A stretch of 64,000 nucleotides of DNA from Chloroflexota bacterium. GTDB taxonomy: Bacteria > Chloroflexota > UBA11872. How positions within the stretch are numbered: the first letter of the stretch is position 1; each line of letters opens with the position of its first letter. The notes beneath the pieces were generated by a model, which saw only the letters and a program-made list of their open reading frames with translations, made no database searches and had not been told where the DNA came from. Shown one piece after another: positions 31,414-42,208 of this stretch. The translations under genes and the position numbers were made by a program. Location: the NCBI GenBank assembly GCA_026706485.1, contig JAPOYR010000013.1, positions 1 to 64,000 of the forward strand. Reading direction: 5' to 3'.

Positions 31414-33684
31414 TTGACCGCGTTGGAACGACTGGCGCGAGTGCCGCGGCCTGGTTGGGTGGTCACCGGGCTGCTGTGTCTCCCCTGGTTCGTGCTTCTG
31501 GGCTGGTTGGCGAGCGTGAGCTGGTTCATCACCGACGACGCGTTCATCAGCTTTCGCTACGTGCGCAATCTGCTCGAGGGTCACGGATTGGTCTTCAATC
31601 CCGGCGAGTACGTGGAGGGCTACACCAACTTCCTGTGGGTGCTCGAGCTCGCGGCGATCTGGCGCCTGTTCGGGATCCGCCCGGAGGACGTGGCTCAATG
31701 GCTGTCGGTCGGCTACACCGTGGGCACGATCGCGGTGATGCTGTGGTGGGTGGCGCGGATGCCGTGGCTGCGCCACCGAGGGCTGATCGCCTGGATGGCG
31801 TTGGGGTTGATCTGCGGCAGCGCCACGTTTGCCGTGTGGACCTCGGGCGGCGGGCTGGAGACGCGGCAGTTCACGTTCTTCGCCCTGGTTGCGGTGGCCG
31901 CCTTGAGCGTGTTCGGGGCCAACCGCTGGGCGCTGCTGGCGGCCTCGTTGAGCCTGGCCGCCGCGGCGTTGACGCGGCCCGAAGGCCTGCTCGTGGCGGC
32001 TTGCTGCGTCGGCTGGTTCGTGGCGCACCGGTGGTTCACGGCGCGAAAGTGGGACTGGCGCGGGACGCTGGCTTTGGCCGGCCCCTTCGTCGTGCTGATT
32101 GGCGGGCACTTTCTGGCGCGGTATCGGTACTACGGCGAATGGCTGCCGAACACGTACTACGCGAAGCACGTGGGGCCGTGGTACGAGTCGGGGTTTCGGT
32201 ATTTGTGGTCCGCGGCAATTGAGACCGGGCTGTATCTGCTGATCCCACTGGCGGTGGTGGCGCTGCGGGGTCGGTGGCGAGAGCACCGCGATGGGATCTA
32301 TGCCCTGGTGCTGCTCCTGGTTGGGGCGCACATGGTCTATTTGCTCGAAATTGGTGGCGACCTCTACGAATACCGACCGATGGACTACTACTGGCCGTTG
32401 CTGGCGGTGCCGGCGGCGGAGGGTGTCGTGCGGGTGGGTGCGTGGTTGTCGAACTCATTGCGGCAGTTGTCCCGGCGCCTGCGGTGGGCCGGTCCTCGGA
32501 CGCTGGCGGTCGCGCTTTTCGTACCGCTGCTCTTCTATGCCGGCGCAATTCAGGCACTACTCCTGTTCGAGAGCAAGGAAGCGCCCCGTCCCGATTGGGG
32601 CGTCCCTCCGCAAGTCGTGCTCGACGCATCAAACTCCGGGTGGTTGCAGGCTGCGCCGGGGATGCCGGCGCTCGTCGCCATCTCAAATGACTTGCGCTTA
32701 GCCTCCGAGCCGCACTTCGTCGGCCTGAGGACCCAGCAACACCACCAATACAACGCTCCGACGATACCCGGATGGCAGGCCTATGAGGAATCCTCTCGCC
32801 TGGTCATTCCAGCCGATGCCGTGATGTCTTCGTCGACAATCGGAATCGTCTCCTACTACCTGCCGAACCTCACGGTGATCGATTTGTTTGGGCTGGCCGA
32901 CCACACCATTGCCCGCAATCCGGTCACTCTGACGAACAGTGAGCGGCGAATCGCTCACGACCGCTCCGCACCGCCTGGCTATGTTCAGCGCCGGGGGGTG
33001 AACATCCGTCTCTCTCCGGCCGTTGCCACCGAAGCCAAGGCGCTGGCTGGGGCCAACTATGCGCTCCGAGTTGGCCCAGGAACCTGGATGCCGTTCGACG
33101 TCTTCGATCACGCGTGGGCCAACGAGCGATTCGACGACTTCGATCTGCGAGCGACCAATCGATTCTCACAGACTGATCCGGCCGGGAATCGCTTTGCGAA
33201 AGACGGCGTTCGGTATGTGGGTGAGCAGTTTCTCGGGCGCTTTGACGGGACCGATCTGGATGGCTGGCATCGTGAAGTCAAGGCGGTCACCAACCACGAG
33301 TTGGCGCCGTTTCGGGACAGGCGCTTTCCGGTGAGGGGCCACGTGGGGCCCGGGTTCCTCACGACCTACTACCCCGGCAAATGGGAACGGACGGGCCGGG
33401 CGACGTCTCCGACGTTTACGGCGCGGGACGATCAATACCTCGTGTTCCTGATTGCCGGAGAGGAGCATGACCGTGTGGGCCTGCGGCTGCTGGCCGACGG
33501 CGAAGAGGTTGCCCTGTGGCGGGGCGCCAACTGGGAGGCGTTTGAGCTCGTGGTGTATCCGTTGCGCGACGTTGCCGGCAGAGAGCTGCAACTCGAAATC
33601 ATCAACAATGAGATTGGGGACCGCCCGCGCCTCATGCTCGATCACGTGATGTTGGTCCGAAGGGAATCGGTGACGAGCCAATGA
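31414..33684 (+). CDS. GT-C membrane glycosyltransferase, copy A (AftB-like)
   Basis: 756 residues. After the first membrane helix comes 'FITDDAFISFRYVRNLLEGH' with the Asp-Asp of GT-C enzymes, then 'NPGEYVEGYTNFLWVLELAA', 'WTSGGGLETRQFTFF', 'ALTRPEGLLVAACC' and 'GEWLPNTYYAKHVGP'. This motif set resembles mycobacterial AftB-type transferases that use polyprenyl-phosphate sugars. Residues up to about 380 hold roughly ten helices. The region from about 390 to 640 is exoplasmic and differs among the three copies. The last 100 residues form a conserved beta-rich domain ('FLIAGEEHDRVGLRLLADGE'). The TTG at 31414 is the longest plausible start. Two paralogues follow at 34450 and 39893. Confidence 0.87.
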   Translation: MTALERLARVPRPGWVVTGLLCLPWFVLLGWLASVSWFITDDAFISFRYVRNLLEGHGLVFNPGEYVEGYTNFLWVLELAAIWRLFGIRPEDVAQWLSVGYTVGTIAVMLWWVARMPWLRHRGLIAWMALGLICGSATFAVWTSGGGLETRQFTFFALVAVAALSVFGANRWALLAASLSLAAAALTRPEGLLVAACCVGWFVAHRWFTARKWDWRGTLALAGPFVVLIGGHFLARYRYYGEWLPNTYYAKHVGPWYESGFRYLWSAAIETGLYLLIPLAVVALRGRWREHRDGIYALVLLLVGAHMVYLLEIGGDLYEYRPMDYYWPLLAVPAAEGVVRVGAWLSNSLRQLSRRLRWAGPRTLAVALFVPLLFYAGAIQALLLFESKEAPRPDWGVPPQVVLDASNSGWLQAAPGMPALVAISNDLRLASEPHFVGLRTQQHHQYNAPTIPGWQAYEESSRLVIPADAVMSSSTIGIVSYYLPNLTVIDLFGLADHTIARNPVTLTNSERRIAHDRSAPPGYVQRRGVNIRLSPAVATEAKALAGANYALRVGPGTWMPFDVFDHAWANERFDDFDLRATNRFSQTDPAGNRFAKDGVRYVGEQFLGRFDGTDLDGWHREVKAVTNHELAPFRDRRFPVRGHVGPGFLTTYYPGKWERTGRATSPTFTARDDQYLVFLIAGEEHDRVGLRLLADGEEVALWRGANWEAFELVVYPLRDVAGRELQLEIINNEIGDRPRLMLDHVMLVRRESVTSQ
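31831..32153 (+). repeat. 323-nt segment identical to 40370-40692
   Basis: By direct comparison, copy A and copy C of the glycosyltransferase are identical over these 323 nt, then differ at the next base (G here, C at 40693). A second identical stretch is 32398-32534 with 40937-41073 (137 nt). Both have the same offset of 8539. Confidence 0.93.
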
Positions 33685-33762
33685 CCGCGTGTGCAGCATT
33701 GATTGGGGCCGCTCCGACCCGGTCAGGCGGTGAGAATGGTCGCCTCAGGCGAGAGTCAATCG

Positions 33763-33867
33763 ATGACAGTTGATCCGTTTGTGATTCCCGGCCTGCTGCT
33801 CCTGACGTCGGCGCTTATCGTGCTAGCCGCGGGAGGTTACGCCGTGGCTCGCGTTGCGCTGCGGTAG
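33763..33867 (+). CDS. Possible 34-residue single-span membrane peptide
   Basis: The frame encodes 'MTVDPFVIPGLLLLTSALIV' followed by 'LAAGGYAVARVALR', a plausible one-helix membrane peptide. It ends at TAG 33865. The same frame continues four codons later with an ATG at 33880, so it could also be the first half of an interrupted gene. A decayed relative follows copy B at 36865. In 33685-34449 I see only this pair and an AT-rich patch near 34290-34370. Confidence 0.4.
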   Translation: MTVDPFVIPGLLLLTSALIVLAAGGYAVARVALR

Positions 33868-33879
33868 GACGACGAGCGC

Positions 33880-34065
33880 ATGGCGCTGGCGCAGGGGCTG
33901 GTAGTCGGCCTTGCCCGCTGGGGCATCATCACAAACTTCCTGTTGTACGTAGTGCCGGGGCTCTCCGCTGCCGCCGTGATACCGGGCGTGCGGATCAGGA
34001 TTGCCGAGGACGGAGAAGCAGCCTTCGAGCCGTTTGCGGAGGTGCTTGGCGGGAGAACCCTCTAG
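33880..34065 (+). CDS. Possible 61-residue small membrane protein
   Basis: The frame encodes a hydrophobic segment ('GLARWGIITNFLLYVVPGLS') and an acidic C-terminus. It is in the same frame as the peptide at 33763, separated only by the TAG at 33865 and four codons. The two may be separate small genes or one gene with a nonsense change. No homologue is recognised, and no strong ribosome-binding site is seen. Confidence 0.35.
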   Translation: MALAQGLVVGLARWGIITNFLLYVVPGLSAAAVIPGVRIRIAEDGEAAFEPFAEVLGGRTL

Positions 34066-34449
34066 GCCCGCGGCGCGGCCCAGTAGCGTCGAGCCGGGCG
34101 CGTATCTCAATCGTTGCGGATGCCCCAAACGGGCCTGCCGGGCCAAGGCTCGTGCGGATGGGATTGAGCGACCCTCGGATTCAGCGGCCAATCCTGTGAG
34201 ATCGCGTGTAGACGGCCGCACAGCGACTGTCTGGAACCCTGCTTATCGGGGGCATGCTGCCCAGTATCGGTAGAGCGGAGGTCTGGAGTCTGGCTCGTTT
34301 GTAAATATGCATTCACGTCCTTAGGATTCACGAAGAAATCAGCATATCTTGGAAAATGGCCCCTTGACGCCGAAACCAGATGCATTGCTCGTCCCTGCGC
34401 TTTCTCGACCATTGAAAGCCGAGGCGCCGCAAACTCATTGCGCGGGCTG

Positions 34450-36735
34450 ATGCCGTCGCGGCGAATGCCCCGGGTAGCCGCCGCGCTGGCGCTCGTTCTC
34501 TGGTTGGCCCTGCTGGGCTGGCTGGCGAGCGTTGGGTGGTTCATCACCGACGACGCCTTCATCAGCTTTCGTTATGTGCGCAACCTGCTCGACGGGCATG
34601 GCTTGGTCTTCAATCCCGGCGAGTACGTGGAGGGCTACACCAACTTCCTGTGGGTGCTCGAGCTCGCCGCGATCTGGCGCGTGCTAGGCATCCGGCCGGA
34701 GGACGTGGCCCAGTGGCTGTCGGTGATCTATACCGTGGGCACGATTGCCGTGATGCTGTGGTGGGTAGCCCGGATGCCGTTTCTGCGGCATCGCGGGCTG
34801 GTGGCCTGGATGGCGCTGGGGTTGATCGGCAGCAGCGCGACGTTCGCCGTGTGGACCTCAGGCGGTGGGCTGGAGACGCGGCAATTCACGTTCTTCACGC
34901 TGGTCGCGGTCGTCTGCTTGAGCGTGTACGGGACCAATAGTATTTCTCGATGGAATATTTCGGGGGGGGGCAATCGCTGGGCGTTGGCGGCAGCCTCGCT
35001 GAGCCTGGCCGCCGCGGCGTTGACACGGCCCGAAGGCCTGCTGGTGGCGGCGTGCTGCGTGGGTTGGTTCGCGGCGCACCGGTGGTTCACGGCGCGGCAG
35101 GTGGATTGGCGCGGGACGTTGGCGCTGGCGGGCCCCTTCGTGGTGCTGATTGGCGGCCATTTTCTGGCGCGGTATCGGTACTACGGCGAATGGCTGCCGA
35201 ACACGTACTACGCGAAGCACGTGGGGCCGTGGTACGAGTCGGGGTTTCGGTACTTGTGGGCTGCGGCGATTGAGACGGGGCTGTATCTACTGATCCCGCT
35301 GGCGGTGGTGGCGATGGGGAGTCGGTGGCGCGAGCACCGCGATGGGATCTACGCCCTGGTGCTGCTCCTCGTGGGGACGCACATGGCCTATCTCTTCGAG
35401 ATTGGCGGCGACCACTTCGAGTATCGGCCGATGGACCACTACTGGCCGTTGCTGGCGGTCCCGGCGGCCGAGGGCCTGGCCCGTGTGGGCGGCGGGCTGT
35501 GCGCATGGCTCAAGCGCTGGTCCCACTACCCGCGGCGGCTCGGACCACGGACCCTGGCAGTCGCGCTATTCGTGCCCGTCCTCTTCTACGCCAGCGCGAT
35601 TCAGGGCGTTCTGCTATTTGAAGGCCGGACAATGCTTCAGTCCCAAGATGCCGCTCCGTCACAGGTAGCGCTTGATGACCAGAATGCTGCCTGGCTACTG
35701 ACGGTGCCGGGGATGCCGGCGCTGGTCGCCCTTTCGAACGACCTGCGATTTGAGTCCGGTCGACATCTGGTTGGGATGAGGACCTACGAGCATCACGCCG
35801 CCGCCAGATGGCGCATCGGCGGGTGGCAGCCCTACGAGCACACGGCGAGCCGGTTTCTTCCGGGCGATGCGGAAATGACCATGGACGCAATGGGCATTGG
35901 TCCCTATTTCCTGCCCGATGTGGTGTTTGTCGACGTGTTCGGGCTGGTCGATGCGACCGTGGCCAGGAATCCAGTTGCCAGGTCGAACAGCGAGCGAGTG
36001 ATTGCCCACGACCGCACCCCTCCGCCGGGCTACCTGCAGCGTCGAGGGGTAAACATTCGCATCGATCACGCGGTGACAACCGAAGCCCAAGCGCTTGTCA
36101 GACGGAATTACGCGCTGAACGTTGGCCCGGAAATATGGATGCCGTTCGACGTTGTCGATCACCTGTGGGCGAACGAACGCTTCGCCAATTTTGACCTGCG
36201 CGCAAGGAACCGATTCTCGTCGACCGATCCAACGGGGAATCGCTTCACCGTTGACGGTGTCCGCTATGTGGGTGAGCAATTCCTCGGGCGCTTTGACGGA
36301 ACGGATCTGGATGGCTGGCATCGCGAGGTCAAGGCGGTCACCAACCACGAGTTGGCGCCGTTCCTCGACAGGCGCTCTCCGGTGAAGGGCCGCGTGGGGC
36401 CCGGGTTCCTCACGACGTACTACCCGGGGAAATGGGAGCGCACGGGGGAGGCGTACTCGCCGGTATTCACGGCCAGGGACGATCAATACCTGATGTTCCT
36501 CATCGCCGGGGAACGGCATGACTTGGTGGGCCTGCGCCTGCTGGCCGATGGCGAAGAAGTGGCCGTGTGGCGCGGTGACAACTGGAGGCGCTTTGAAATG
36601 GTGATCTATCCGTTGCGCCAACTCGCCGGCAAAGAGCTGCAGCTGGAGATCTTCAACCACGAGATTGGCGACCGGCCGCGCCTCATGCTCGATCACGTGA
36701 TGCTGGTCCGGGAAGAGGCCGCGGTCAGCTCGTGA
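34450..36735 (+). CDS. GT-C membrane glycosyltransferase, copy B (AftB-like), with a G9 tract
   Basis: About 761 residues, sharing the architecture of copy A: Asp-Asp loop 'FITDDAFISFRYVRNLLDGH', 'GEYVEGYTNFLW', 'GEWLPNTYYAKHVGP', a divergent exoplasmic middle, and the conserved C-terminal beta-rich domain. It alone carries a 12-codon insertion at 34939-34974 ('SISRWNISGGGN') containing nine consecutive G residues (34962-34970). Loss or gain of one or two G would frameshift the gene at about one quarter of its length. The start may be TTG 34438, ATG 34450 or ATG 34465. The upstream 384 nt (34066-34449) contain no gene I can support. Confidence 0.87.
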   Translation: MPSRRMPRVAAALALVLWLALLGWLASVGWFITDDAFISFRYVRNLLDGHGLVFNPGEYVEGYTNFLWVLELAAIWRVLGIRPEDVAQWLSVIYTVGTIAVMLWWVARMPFLRHRGLVAWMALGLIGSSATFAVWTSGGGLETRQFTFFTLVAVVCLSVYGTNSISRWNISGGGNRWALAAASLSLAAAALTRPEGLLVAACCVGWFAAHRWFTARQVDWRGTLALAGPFVVLIGGHFLARYRYYGEWLPNTYYAKHVGPWYESGFRYLWAAAIETGLYLLIPLAVVAMGSRWREHRDGIYALVLLLVGTHMAYLFEIGGDHFEYRPMDHYWPLLAVPAAEGLARVGGGLCAWLKRWSHYPRRLGPRTLAVALFVPVLFYASAIQGVLLFEGRTMLQSQDAAPSQVALDDQNAAWLLTVPGMPALVALSNDLRFESGRHLVGMRTYEHHAAARWRIGGWQPYEHTASRFLPGDAEMTMDAMGIGPYFLPDVVFVDVFGLVDATVARNPVARSNSERVIAHDRTPPPGYLQRRGVNIRIDHAVTTEAQALVRRNYALNVGPEIWMPFDVVDHLWANERFANFDLRARNRFSSTDPTGNRFTVDGVRYVGEQFLGRFDGTDLDGWHREVKAVTNHELAPFLDRRSPVKGRVGPGFLTTYYPGKWERTGEAYSPVFTARDDQYLMFLIAGERHDLVGLRLLADGEEVAVWRGDNWRRFEMVIYPLRQLAGKELQLEIFNHEIGDRPRLMLDHVMLVREEAAVSS
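34501..34859 (+). repeat. 359-nt segment identical to 40025-40383
   Basis: Copy B and copy C are identical base for base over this stretch, and differ at the next base (A here, G at 40384). It covers the first helix, the Asp-Asp loop and the second and third membrane segments. Confidence 0.93.
34939..34974 (+). other. 36-nt in-frame insertion with G9 homopolymer
   Basis: Copies A and C read Asn-Arg-Trp at this point. Copy B has twelve extra codons before the Arg-Trp, ending in TCG GGG GGG GGC, a run of nine G (34962-34970). The insert is AT-rich apart from the run, and looks like an imperfect internal duplication of the Asn..Arg-Trp codons. Confidence 0.8.
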
Positions 36736-37042
36736 TCACACCGGCGGGGCATTGATTGACGCCACGGCGGTGCCCACCGATGTGGGCCCCCTCCGGCTCG
36801 CGGGGGCTGACATGACGGACTCCCTACTCTTGCGCCGGACGATTCACCGGCTGAGAGTCGATGAATGCCTGTTGATCCGACCGTCGTTTCCGGCCTGCCG
36901 CACCTCGCCGTCGGTCGCCGTGATGGCGCTTCGCGACGGCGGAGCCCCCGGAGTCCGCTGCGCGCGCAGACTATAGACTGGCAAGCCCGGCGGCTTTCGT
37001 ATCCCAGACGGTGGCAGTCCACGTAGCGCTTGCGGGAGTGAT
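36736..37042 (+). other. Gap with a decayed copy of the post-copy-A small gene
   Basis: From about 36750 the sequence aligns with the region after copy A: 'GCATTGATTG' near both stops, a shared GAGAGTC, and 36865 onward (ATGCCTGTTGATCCG) against 33763 (ATGACAGTTGATCCG). The hydrophobic peptide is lost through indels. A 74-codon open frame at 36752 has no protein-like character. Confidence 0.55.
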
Positions 37043-39592
37043 GTGAGGCACGGAGTACTGGTCCGTGCGTTGCCGGGTATCGCGCTTGTGGCTGCCGCGC
37101 TGGCTGCCCTGCTGATCGTGCTTGCCGTGGACACTCCAAGCGGCGAGTCCGTGGTTCCCTTGGAGACGACGCCGACTCCGGTGCCCCCGCCGGAACCGGC
37201 GGTCGAGGCAACGCCTGACCCGGATGACGCATCGCCCCCGGAAACCATGGTTGAAATGGGGAGACGGATGTACGCGCTGCACTGCGCCGTGTGTCACGGG
37301 GAAAACCTCGAAGGAGGAATCAGCCCGTCGCTTGCCGGACCCGAGCTGTCCGATCGCTATGCCACGGCACTCGACCTCTACGACTACATCCGCAACCGCA
37401 TGCCCGCCGGAGGCGTTGGCCCCGGGGGCCTCATCGATCCCGAGTATCTCCAGATCACCGCGTTCATGCTTAACCAACGCGGCGTGTTGGCCAGTGATGT
37501 CGAGCTCACGATTGATCTGGCCGACGCGACCCCGCTGGAGCCGACGGACACATCACTGTCGGCCGTCGTCGCATTGCCGCCACCACCGCCAGAATCAGCG
37601 CCGGTTCTCACGCCCGCGGCCAGCGGCAATACGCCGCCGCAACTGCCCGCCTTGGTTGAGCCGGCGACGGTGCTGCTTCGCGACGGACTTTCGCCAGTCT
37701 TCGTCACGCTGCAGACGGGGCCGTTTGTCGACGCGGACCCGGACGATCGGCACACGGCGACAGAGTTCGGAATCTGGGAGCTGGGCGGCTTTACTCGGGT
37801 TTGGACCGCCCTGGTGACGGCCAACCCTCTCGACCAAGCGACGCTTGAGCGCGGGGTCTTCGAGGGTTCCCTCGCAGGGCGAATGAGCCTCGACCATAAG
37901 ACGACCTATGCCATCCGTGCGCGCCATCGCGATTCCAGCGGCGACCCGCTGAGCGAGTGGTCGGCGTGGTCGGACCTGTGGATGGTGGTGACGGCCAAGC
38001 ACGATAACCCGACTGCCCGGCCGATGCGGTTGCGTGACATCCAGACGCACAGCCTTCGCTGGCAGGCGGACGACGGCAGGCCGGTCGCGCTGACGACCGG
38101 CGCCACGCTGCTGATCACCAGCCCGATCAGCGGGCTGCATGAAATCTCCGGCGCCGCCACGGGCAATGTCGTGCGGGACTTCGAACCGGCCGAGCGCTAT
38201 GCCAGCGTATTCTTCAGGTTTGAGGCTGGCCCGGATGGCCTTGAGGTCCCCGCATCGGAGCTGTCGTTCCTCGACGCGACGGGAGTGCGGCGGATCGCGT
38301 GGCTGCCCTGGCTCAAGCTTGATCCAGGCGCCGTGCTCATTGCCGCGCCGACGGCCACGGGCGCGTTTCACTTTGAGGCGGACGATACACCGCTGGGCCT
38401 TGCTGGCACCGAGCCCAAGCTGTTTTCCCACTCCCAGGCCCGCGCGCCGGCGGTGCCCTGGCGCGTACGTGAGGGATTTCGCGTCGAGTTGGTGGCGGAA
38501 GGATTCAACCTGCCGGTGCTGCTGGCACCGGCGCCATCGCCATCCGACGCCCCGGACGCGCCCGTGGCCTACGTCACCGAGCTCGCCGGCGCAGTCAAGG
38601 CGCTCGGACGGGACGGTTCGGTGTGGACGTATGCGTCGAACATCCTCGGTGAGCAGCCGTGGGCGCCGATCACGGAGTTTGAAGGCGAAACCGGAACGAT
38701 TGGAATCGCGGTCGATCCCCAGACTGGCGATGTCTATGTCACGACCACGTACCGCTCCGGCGACGAGCTTTACAACAAGATTGTGCGCCTCGAGAGCGAC
38801 GACGGCGGCCGCACGGCGGCGCGCGCTGTCGACGTGCTGCGCATGGAGGGCGAAGCGACGGAACCTTCGCACCAGATTCAGGGGCTGCTATTCGGCCACG
38901 ATGACCGGCTGTACGTAGCGGTCGGCAACGGGGCGGTTCATTCCACCCGGGGACTTGACAACGCCTACTTTGGCGGCAAAGTGCTTCGCCTGAATCGGGA
39001 CGGCAGCGCGCCGCGTGACAATCCCCATTTCGACCCCGCGCAACCCGCAGCGCCGGTGTCCTATCAGTGGGCGAAGGGGCTGCGCAACTTCGTCGCGCTG
39101 GCTCAGCGCCCTGGCGACGGTGCCATCTATACGGCAGAGAACGGCGATCACGTTGACCGCCTGCTGCGCGTGGAGACGGGGCAAAACTATGGCTACACGG
39201 GGACTGACCGCAGCCTCCTGCAGCGTGGATTGTGGTTCTTCGAACCGGCCATTGCGCCCGTTGGCGTTGCCTTTGCTGTCGACGGGGCATTTCCGGCGGA
39301 CCGTCAAGGCAATCTATACGTGGGCGCATTCGGGCCGGAGCCCCATAGCTTCGTCCGTGGGACCGTTGACAATGGCAAGGCAATTTGGGAAATCAAGCTG
39401 GACGCCGCTGGGGCGGTCGTGGGGCGTCCGACGATATTCGTGAAGTATGTCGGCGCTGGCGTGGCGCCGATTACGGGCGTGGCCTACCTGGCCGACGGGT
39501 TGTATTTCTTGGAATTCACTGCCGACATGCCGCAAGGGGTGAACCCGGAGCCCGCCGGTCGACTATGGCGCGTCGTGCCGCTCGCGGGCTGA
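37043..39592 (+). CDS. Secreted cytochrome c / PQQ-type sugar dehydrogenase beta-propeller protein
   Basis: 849 residues with a GTG start after GGGAG. An N-terminal membrane anchor or signal (about 8-29) and a Pro/Thr linker precede a class I cytochrome c domain with heme motif 'CAVCHG' (Cys81, Cys84, His85) and a likely axial Met in 'RNRMPAGG'. A Pro-rich linker and an unassigned beta-rich middle (about 210-470) follow. The C-terminal 350 residues look like the glucose/sorbosone dehydrogenase propeller ('VRLESDDGGR', 'SHQIQGLLFGHDDRLYVAVG', 'YQWAKGLRNF', 'YTAENGDHVDRLLRV', 'NYGYTGTD'). It would oxidise a sugar or alcohol outside the membrane and pass electrons to its own heme. It sits between copies B and C of the glycosyltransferase. 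Confidence 0.87.
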   Translation: MRHGVLVRALPGIALVAAALAALLIVLAVDTPSGESVVPLETTPTPVPPPEPAVEATPDPDDASPPETMVEMGRRMYALHCAVCHGENLEGGISPSLAGPELSDRYATALDLYDYIRNRMPAGGVGPGGLIDPEYLQITAFMLNQRGVLASDVELTIDLADATPLEPTDTSLSAVVALPPPPPESAPVLTPAASGNTPPQLPALVEPATVLLRDGLSPVFVTLQTGPFVDADPDDRHTATEFGIWELGGFTRVWTALVTANPLDQATLERGVFEGSLAGRMSLDHKTTYAIRARHRDSSGDPLSEWSAWSDLWMVVTAKHDNPTARPMRLRDIQTHSLRWQADDGRPVALTTGATLLITSPISGLHEISGAATGNVVRDFEPAERYASVFFRFEAGPDGLEVPASELSFLDATGVRRIAWLPWLKLDPGAVLIAAPTATGAFHFEADDTPLGLAGTEPKLFSHSQARAPAVPWRVREGFRVELVAEGFNLPVLLAPAPSPSDAPDAPVAYVTELAGAVKALGRDGSVWTYASNILGEQPWAPITEFEGETGTIGIAVDPQTGDVYVTTTYRSGDELYNKIVRLESDDGGRTAARAVDVLRMEGEATEPSHQIQGLLFGHDDRLYVAVGNGAVHSTRGLDNAYFGGKVLRLNRDGSAPRDNPHFDPAQPAAPVSYQWAKGLRNFVALAQRPGDGAIYTAENGDHVDRLLRVETGQNYGYTGTDRSLLQRGLWFFEPAIAPVGVAFAVDGAFPADRQGNLYVGAFGPEPHSFVRGTVDNGKAIWEIKLDAAGAVVGRPTIFVKYVGAGVAPITGVAYLADGLYFLEFTADMPQGVNPEPAGRLWRVVPLAG

Positions 39593-39892
39593 GTCCGAGA
39601 CGAGGCTGGAGGCGTGGGCGACCGACGCTGCACAGCGCGCGATCAGCGCCGACTCACGTGCGAGGATTTCGCCGAACGACGTCGGAGTCGCCGTTGCGAC
39701 CTCAGAGCGGTTGTTCAGAGTCTGCATGGAGGGTTAGGTCTCGCGAGGTGTTCGCAGATGTCTCGTGAGTGCGGTCGGCTGTTCCACGCCTCGACAACAC
39801 TGTGACAGCCGCTCGCTTCGCTAGGATGTGGTTTCCTGCCCCTCAAGTTCTCGGAGGGTCGTTGCGGCTTTCGGCGCGCGAGTTCGCCAGGC
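39593..39892 (+). other. 300-nt gap without a supported gene
   Basis: Between the propeller gene and copy C I see no protein-like frame, repeat or clear promoter. Open frames here are short, Arg/Ser-rich and overlap one another. Confidence 0.5.
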
Positions 39893-42208
39893 ATGAAGCC
39901 GGAGCACGATGGAGCTTGGAGTTCCGTGCGCGTCTCTGACGGTACAGACCCAATAAGAGTCGCGCTCGGCCGGGCACGCGATCCCCGCACCCACTCGTTC
40001 GTCATCGCGCTGGCGCTCCTTCCCTGGTTGGCCCTGCTGGGCTGGCTGGCGAGCGTTGGGTGGTTCATCACCGACGACGCCTTCATCAGCTTTCGTTATG
40101 TGCGCAACCTGCTCGACGGGCATGGCTTGGTCTTCAATCCCGGCGAGTACGTGGAGGGCTACACCAACTTCCTGTGGGTGCTCGAGCTCGCCGCGATCTG
40201 GCGCGTGCTAGGCATCCGGCCGGAGGACGTGGCCCAGTGGCTGTCGGTGATCTATACCGTGGGCACGATTGCCGTGATGCTGTGGTGGGTAGCCCGGATG
40301 CCGTTTCTGCGGCATCGCGGGCTGGTGGCCTGGATGGCGCTGGGGTTGATCGGCAGCAGCGCGACGTTCGCCGTGTGGACCTCGGGCGGCGGGCTGGAGA
40401 CGCGGCAGTTCACGTTCTTCGCCCTGGTTGCGGTGGCCGCCTTGAGCGTGTTCGGGGCCAACCGCTGGGCGCTGCTGGCGGCCTCGTTGAGCCTGGCCGC
40501 CGCGGCGTTGACGCGGCCCGAAGGCCTGCTCGTGGCGGCTTGCTGCGTCGGCTGGTTCGTGGCGCACCGGTGGTTCACGGCGCGAAAGTGGGACTGGCGC
40601 GGGACGCTGGCTTTGGCCGGCCCCTTCGTCGTGCTGATTGGCGGGCACTTTCTGGCGCGGTATCGGTACTACGGCGAATGGCTGCCGAACACCTACTACG
40701 CGAAGCACGTGGGTCCGTGGTACGAGTCGGGGTTTCGGTATTTGTGGGCCGCGGCGATGGAAACGGGGCTGTATCTGCTGATCCCGCTGGCAGTGGTGGC
40801 GCTGCGGGGTCGGTGGCGAGAGCACCGGGATGGAATCTATGCCCTGGTGCTGCTGCTGGTGGGAACGCACATGGCCTACCTCTTCGAGATCGGGGGCGAC
40901 TACTTCGAATACCGCCCGATGGACCACTACTGGCCATTGCTGGCGGTGCCGGCGGCGGAGGGTGTCGTGCGGGTGGGTGCGTGGTTGTCGAACTCATTGC
41001 GGCAGTTGTCCCGGCGCCTGCGGTGGGCCGGTCCTCGGACGCTGGCGGTCGCGCTTTTCGTACCGCTGCTCTTTTACGCCAACGCCCTTCAGGCAGCACT
41101 GCTATTCGAGGGCAAGGCGGTGGCCAAGCTCGATGGCAGCCAATCTCTGCAGATCGCGCTTGGAAACCAGAACACGGCCTGGTTGTTGGCCGCGCCCGGT
41201 ATGCCGGTGTTGGTGGCCGTCTCCAACGACCTGCGCTCAGAGTCCGAGAAACGGCTGGTGGGCCTCCGAACGCATCAACGCAGCCACCATGCCCATAGAA
41301 TTCGCAAATGGAAGCCTTACGAAGACTTCTCCGGTCAGGTTATCCCCAGCGATGCGGTGACGGTCATGGGAGCCGTCGGGATTGCCCCCTATTTCGTGCC
41401 AACGTTGGAGGTGGTCGACAGCTTTGGACTAGTCGATGCGACGGTCGCCCGCAACCCGGTGACACCGACCGACAGCGAGCGGCGAGTTGCTCACGACCGC
41501 AGTCCGCCGCCGGGCTATCTGCAGCGGCGGGGGGTGAACATCCGGCTCCATTCGTCCGTTGCAACCGAAGCCGAGGCACTGGCTCGGGCCAACTATGCGG
41601 TCGAAGTTGGCCCAGGAATCTGGATGCCGTTTGACGCCTACGATCACGCGTGGGCGAACGCCCGATTCGGCGACTTAGGTCTGCGAGCCGAAAACCGCTT
41701 CTCGCAGGACGACCCGGCCGGCAATCGCGTGATCAAGGACGACGTGCGCTACGTGGGCGAGGAGTTTCTCGGGCGCTTCGAGGACCGGGGGTTGGATGGC
41801 TGGCGACGCGAGAGCAAAGCGGTCACCAATCACATTCTGGGTCCCTTCTACGACCGCGTGTACCCCGTTGAAGGGCACGTGGGCCCTGGGTTTCTCACGA
41901 CGTACTACCCGGGAAAATGGGAGCGCACGGGGGAGGCGTACTCGCCGGTATTCACGGCGAGAGACGATCAATACCTGATGTTCCTCATCGCCGGGGAACG
42001 GCATGACTTCGTGGGCCTGCGCCTGCTGGCTGATGGAGAAGAAGTGGCCGTTTGGCGCGGTGACAACTGGAGGGCCTTTGAAATGGTGATCTATCCCTTG
42101 CGCCAACTCGCCGGCAAAGAGCTGCAGCTGGAAATCTTCAACCACGAGATTGGCGACCGGCCGCGCCTGATGCTCGATCATGTGATGCTGGTTCGACGGG
42201 AATCATGA
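39893..42208 (+). CDS. GT-C membrane glycosyltransferase, copy C (mosaic of copies A and B)
   Basis: 771 residues from ATG 39893; a GTG at 39926 with GGAG upstream is an alternative start. The architecture matches copies A and B, with an Asp-Asp loop, 'VEGYTNFLW', 'LPNTYYAKHVGP', a variable exoplasmic middle and a C-terminal beta domain. The nucleotide sequence is chimeric. Positions 40025-40383 equal copy B, 40370-40692 and 40937-41073 equal copy A, and 41890-42190 is again close to copy B ('GKWERTGEAYSPVFTARDDQ'). The switch from B to A falls within 40370-40383. It lacks the G9 insertion. The enolase-superfamily gene follows 34 nt later. Confidence 0.87.
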   Translation: MKPEHDGAWSSVRVSDGTDPIRVALGRARDPRTHSFVIALALLPWLALLGWLASVGWFITDDAFISFRYVRNLLDGHGLVFNPGEYVEGYTNFLWVLELAAIWRVLGIRPEDVAQWLSVIYTVGTIAVMLWWVARMPFLRHRGLVAWMALGLIGSSATFAVWTSGGGLETRQFTFFALVAVAALSVFGANRWALLAASLSLAAAALTRPEGLLVAACCVGWFVAHRWFTARKWDWRGTLALAGPFVVLIGGHFLARYRYYGEWLPNTYYAKHVGPWYESGFRYLWAAAMETGLYLLIPLAVVALRGRWREHRDGIYALVLLLVGTHMAYLFEIGGDYFEYRPMDHYWPLLAVPAAEGVVRVGAWLSNSLRQLSRRLRWAGPRTLAVALFVPLLFYANALQAALLFEGKAVAKLDGSQSLQIALGNQNTAWLLAAPGMPVLVAVSNDLRSESEKRLVGLRTHQRSHHAHRIRKWKPYEDFSGQVIPSDAVTVMGAVGIAPYFVPTLEVVDSFGLVDATVARNPVTPTDSERRVAHDRSPPPGYLQRRGVNIRLHSSVATEAEALARANYAVEVGPGIWMPFDAYDHAWANARFGDLGLRAENRFSQDDPAGNRVIKDDVRYVGEEFLGRFEDRGLDGWRRESKAVTNHILGPFYDRVYPVEGHVGPGFLTTYYPGKWERTGEAYSPVFTARDDQYLMFLIAGERHDFVGLRLLADGEEVAVWRGDNWRAFEMVIYPLRQLAGKELQLEIFNHEIGDRPRLMLDHVMLVRRES
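40025..40692 (+). repeat. Chimeric segment: 40025-40383 from copy B, 40370-40692 from copy A
   Basis: Direct comparison shows 359 nt identity with 34501-34859 and 323 nt identity with 31831-32153. The two identity blocks overlap by 14 nt (40370-40383), where all three copies agree. Recombination between paralogues therefore occurred inside that window. Confidence 0.92.

Follow-up and report, generated by a model that had tools for sequence, protein, structure and literature searches.

The run of nine Gs (G9) inside a glycosyltransferase gene in the window (the whole 64,000-nucleotide stretch of Chloroflexota DNA analyzed) is probably a contingency, or phase-variation, switch, and the genus has a few other tracts of this kind. 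The G9 run looks like a slip switch because comparable runs occur in relatives, both in members of this gene family and in enzymes that modify DNA, and often have a length that breaks the gene. For surface-glycan and restriction-modification genes, slipped-strand phase variation is the best reading of these tracts. The features of the window that bear on the argument are the following.

31414..33684, + strand: copy A, a tract-free paralogue of 756 aa, 76% identical to copy B.
34438..36735, + strand: copy B, an AftB-like GT-C glycosyltransferase of 765 aa, with an in-frame ATG at 34450.
34939..34974, + strand: insertion of 36 nt (12 residues) containing the G9 tract, delimited by alignment.
34962..34970, + strand: G9 tract, candidate slippage switch, in frame at its present length.
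39893..42208, + strand: copy C, a tract-free paralogue of 771 aa, 80% identical to copy B.

An earlier note on this DNA had described a 36-nt insertion with nine in-frame Gs in copy B alone, and both the open reading frame (ORF) and an alignment confirm that description. The nine Gs, with TC directly 5' of them, lie within the 765-aa ORF of copy B, and neither the other two copies nor three congeneric genes have the insert. Outside the G run the insert is AT-rich, and CAAT flanks both sides. In silico, copy B stays open over 764-767 aa with 6, 9, 12 or 15 Gs, ends after 187 aa with 8 Gs and ends after 278 aa with 10 Gs, so that tract length sets the reading frame, as in a contingency locus. 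The frameshift after "about 170 residues" given in the note is correct for the point at which the frame changes. The tract site of copy B has no counterpart in the other genomes, and an ON/OFF pair was never seen there.

What does copy B encode? Copies A, B and C are read as GT-C glycosyltransferases from sequence comparisons. They have no Pfam match at E 0.01, and they score 34.4, 34.3 and 32.0 bits, respectively, against the NCBIfam model of AftB (NF041481), matches that fall in the N-terminal part and are weak but consistent. Comparison of the copies with the AftB structure (PDB 9dlf) gave E values of 3.4e-4 for B and 0.009 for A. The N-terminal GT-C region of AftB, a mycobacterial terminal beta-(1->2)-arabinofuranosyltransferase, aligns with the copies; in the DD motif region the second D is shared, and the AftB C-terminal motif has a weak likeness in them, but the 34.3 bits of copy B are far below the equivalog cut-off of 1050 bits. 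A fold model of copy B built from five sequences had a mean pLDDT of 37.5, too low for fold assignment. The "surface glycosyltransferase" of the earlier note thus stands only as a distant AftB-like GT-C enzyme, for which we infer a surface role. Pairwise dN/dS among the three copies is 0.23-0.26. Among 24 genomes of the order, relatives with more than 60% identity occur in the genus and in one sister-genus genome, and a search of viral contigs returned no relative of the copy B gene.

The three copies form a mosaic (window positions 31414-42208), in which C is identical to B over one block of 200 alignment columns and to A over a different one; in the center, all three share about 60% identity. 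This pattern points to exchange between the copies and suggests a fast-diverging middle.

One possibility is that the insertion is neutral, sitting in a tolerant loop of one redundant paralogue, and that its G run arose by chance in a GC-rich genome and was not kept for switching. The 3.37-Mb genome has a GC content of 66-67%, the insert lies in a poorly conserved loop without counterpart in the other copies, and copy B is in frame at its current length. The G9 of copy B is the only G/C run of at least 7 in the window. In a 384-kb sample comprising the window and 16 stretches of 20 kb, G/C runs of length 5, 6, 7, 8 and 9 number 359, 49, 3, 0 and 1, the last being that of copy B, and the whole genome holds four runs of exactly 8 and three of at least 9. 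Since the excess over this decaying series is modest, tract length alone proves little. Nor are poly-G counts raised relative to the class: the idea that the genus has unusually many poly-G tracts was rejected, as 39 of 41 class genomes have at least one run of at least 9. The placement of the tracts is unusual for the class and their number is not, and the case for switching rests on where the tracts lie in relatives.

We therefore turn to all G/C runs of at least 9 in five clean congeneric genomes, one genome per species (G000, which contains the window, to G004). These genomes hold 14 such runs (3, 2, 5, 3 and 1 per genome): eight of length 9, three of 10, two of 12 and one of 15. Three are in the glycosyltransferase family, three in methyltransferases, one in a sulfatase-like gene, three in membrane-protein genes and four in 5' or intergenic regions.

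In frame: copy B, the G002 glycosyltransferase and two membrane proteins (L075; L067, 790 aa with C15 on the coding strand).
Out of frame: the G001 glycosyltransferase, the G000, G003 and G004 methyltransferases, a sulfatase-like gene (L065) and a large membrane protein (L069).
5' region: near the start of two leucine-rich-repeat proteins (L068, L072).
5' region: upstream of a cyclophilin-type lipoprotein gene (L070), at four bases from its ATG.
Intergenic: between divergent genes (L071).

Of the ten coding tracts, six shift the frame, and the sequence that follows is still intact: the two halves match intact homologues, of about 940 aa for L069 and 750 aa for L065, or a single domain. Drifting lengths would leave about one tract in three in frame, and the four in ten seen are close to that. 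The L069 family consists of membrane proteins of about 950 aa with no Pfam match, and it has 11 to 15 matches in each of the five genomes.

The sixth genome of the genus, G005, was left out; its runs of at least 9 number 96, and the four poly-G clusters fetched from it all include N runs or contig ends. Artefact poly-G therefore exists in related assemblies. Errors in homopolymer length are common in general, and in some g2 genomes, as in G005, poly-G clusters lie beside N runs and contig ends, so it could be asked whether the tract length in copy B, or its whole insert, is an error of sequencing or assembly. We regard such an error as quite improbable, since the copy B tract is 34 kb from the nearer end of a 344-kb contig, its insert is in frame and adds 27 further ordinary bases, and tracts recur in these families in independent genomes, two of the tracts sharing a homologous site.

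That homologous site is a second tract position in the glycosyltransferase family. A homologue in G002 (contig JAJDUU010000016) has an in-frame G12 run, which lies in a different insertion, about 50 residues beyond that of copy B. At the homologous position in G001 there is a G10 run, with the two halves of the gene in different frames, and both runs are inside a related insertion. The relatives thus differ in tract length at one site (G12 versus G10), and with one tract in frame and the other out of frame, the site has both states in two species. Over 540 comparable codons downstream of the out-of-frame G10, dN/dS in the G001 gene is 0.225 (0.295 upstream), so the sequence beyond the tract is still constrained. 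The tract at this site persists across two species at dS of about 0.45-0.99.

Two other readings in this family were set aside. One was that G001 contigs end at the tract: two start downstream of the tract site with identical sequence, and the breaks therefore lie at repeats between paralogues. A frameshift in one G014 glycosyltransferase copy was rejected as a switch, as there is no repeat at the frameshift. The sequence TTGACATAATG directly precedes two poly-G runs, that of the G001 glycosyltransferase insert (L066) and that of the G003 intergenic region (L071); its presence at these unrelated sites may be chance.

The second family with long tracts comprises split genes (METHYLTRANSFERASES) for DPPF-type amino-methyltransferases (PF01555). 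In the genome of the window, a G12 run splits a methyltransferase-HNH nuclease gene into two frames (L074:1453-2695, G000:C2), and G003 and G004 each have a gene with a G9 run, again out of frame. PF01555 matches both halves in G000 (L074) and G003 (L072); in G004 (L073) it matches the downstream half, and the DPPF motif lies in the upstream one, which is 50 residues long. A fourth case is a G8 tract in another G004 methyltransferase (L132). The G000 gene has an HNH-type end recognized by Pfam, to which the end of the G8 case is similar by alignment, and the two G9 genes have in common an Mrr-like end (a weak match). The methyltransferase tracts occupy three different sites. Genes of this build, split by a repeat tract in G000, G003 and G004, are predicted to be phase-variable restriction-modification genes. 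A motif scan of 400 genomes of the phylum for methyltransferases with a run of at least eight Gs before an F-x-N-E motif found them only in G003 and G004; the sole scan match outside the genus (G150) is a gene other than a methyltransferase, and the reversed control matched four genomes.

Poly-G runs are also present in a sister-genus N6-methyltransferase distantly like MAD2 (NF047738, 29.9 of 720 bits; L198, L199, L200). G009 has an in-frame G10. Of two copies in G011, one has a G14 that puts the gene out of frame after a short upstream part, and the other has a G25 beside the end of a contig. These tracts are suggestive and were left out of the tract count. Most other sister-genus tracts examined are near contig ends or in unclear ORFs.

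The glycosyltransferase and PF01555 families make up 0.11% and 0.26% of the DNA of the five genomes (17.9 kb and 41.6 kb of 16.27 Mb). With three of the 14 tracts apiece, the families give binomial p values of 4.8e-7 and 6.0e-6, respectively, and counting the shared glycosyltransferase site once (2 of 13) gives p 9.3e-5; the choice of gene classes came after inspection of the tracts, though both are classic phase-variation targets. The long tracts are thus concentrated in putative surface and restriction-modification genes. Runs of exactly 8 are mostly in ordinary places, with 1 of 18 in the two families (p 0.064), and the signal is therefore in the longer runs. That the other long tracts of the genus are often in predicted genes of the classic target kinds favors phase variation. 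A neutral insertion consequently appears unlikely, as the 14 tracts are far from random with respect to the two families, the glycosyltransferase tract at the second site has persisted in two species over the divergence given above, and recurrence at a second site in the same gene family would not be expected. The earlier note had proposed phase variation, and the proposal gains comparative evidence from the second glycosyltransferase site and the gene classes, while the tract of copy B itself is in frame at a site unique to it.

If copy B is phase variable, slipped-strand mispairing at replication would add or remove Gs in its tract, and the gene would flip between a full-length glycosyltransferase (currently ON with 9 Gs, and also with 6, 12 or 15) and a truncated, inactive protein. 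Tract length would then be expected to change within a population, truncation presumably abolishes the activity of copy B, and its product may be a surface glycan. With the tract-free neighbors A and C staying on, the glycan coat of the cell could vary in one step. The same set would include the tracts in methyltransferase-nuclease fusions, in other membrane or surface genes and in 5' regions, and the switching may be selected.

An alternative mechanism is programmed transcriptional slippage or frameshifting, by which each gene would yield two proteins rather than switch between cells. Transcription can slip at runs of at least 8, for which one study names mainly A/T runs (PMC3711429). The shifted frames of copy B end quickly, at 187 or 278 aa, with no evident second domain, and tracts also occur in 5' and intergenic regions, which makes this mechanism very improbable.

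Phase variation by slipped-strand mispairing would place copy B beside well-studied genes. Contingency genes of Campylobacter, Neisseria and Helicobacter have intragenic G runs of about 8-12, are often surface-glycan or LOS glycosyltransferases and are ON or OFF according to frame. The tracts described here share with those poly-G/C genes (compare PMC8355987) the intragenic G runs in putative surface-glycan genes and the predicted frame-dependent ON/OFF states. Those hosts are Gram-negative, host-adapted and mostly pathogens, whereas the bacteria here are uncultured, GC-rich Chloroflexota, in which each clean genome has only 1-5 tracts and the enzyme is of the AftB-like GT-C kind. A study of C. 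jejuni describes Cj0031 as a phase-variable, single-gene Type IIG methyltransferase and endonuclease (PMC4889913). The fusions found here are likewise predicted from sequence to combine both activities in one gene, but their motif order is DPPF ... DPFCGCGTT and they end in an HNH or Mrr-like nuclease. For sortase-dependent pili of Bifidobacterium breve, a G-tract switch was demonstrated by maximum depth sequencing (PMC9187656). As proposed here, a G tract within a gene acts there as an ON/OFF switch through slippage at replication, and the host is a high-GC commensal; the system differs in that switching was shown there and is inferred here, and in its phylum and gene classes.

The earlier note held that phase variation is little described in bacteria of this kind, and literature searches agree. 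With partial coverage, searches on phase variation in Chloroflexota or Chloroflexi, on sponge symbionts and on homopolymers and slipped-strand mispairing found no report for the phylum. In the available text of PMC3711429, Chloroflexi appears only as a row of a frame-transition table, and the available parts of PMC6329791 and PMC10924106 report no switching in this phylum. As far as searched, the mechanism is known, and new are the bacterial group and the combination of targets.

Most known cases of phase variation by simple repeats come from host-adapted pathogens, with a few from commensals. We lean, with some reserve, towards the broader idea that this whole genus of uncultured Chloroflexota has a poly-G repertoire that switches surface glycosyltransferases, leucine-rich-repeat surface proteins (through 5' tracts) and single-gene restriction-modification fusions. 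Such a repertoire, judging by the literature searches, would be the first in the phylum; it would extend the strategy to a deep and little-studied lineage, and phage defense and surface coat would vary together across a population. The tracts would also provide a read-level marker of surface and defense heterogeneity in environmental populations, and methyltransferases and glycosyltransferases that look "broken" in an assembled genome may represent OFF alleles rather than pseudogenes.

Two further observations concern the distribution of poly-G runs. In G000, two G8 tracts 1.7 kb apart have near-identical flanking protein sequence and represent tandem copies (L154, L158; G000:C4:369400, 371118). 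Several other genomes (G018, G007, G015-G017 and G227) have from 40 to about 200 runs of at least nine Gs, and G018 is a single contig with its 40 runs spread along it.
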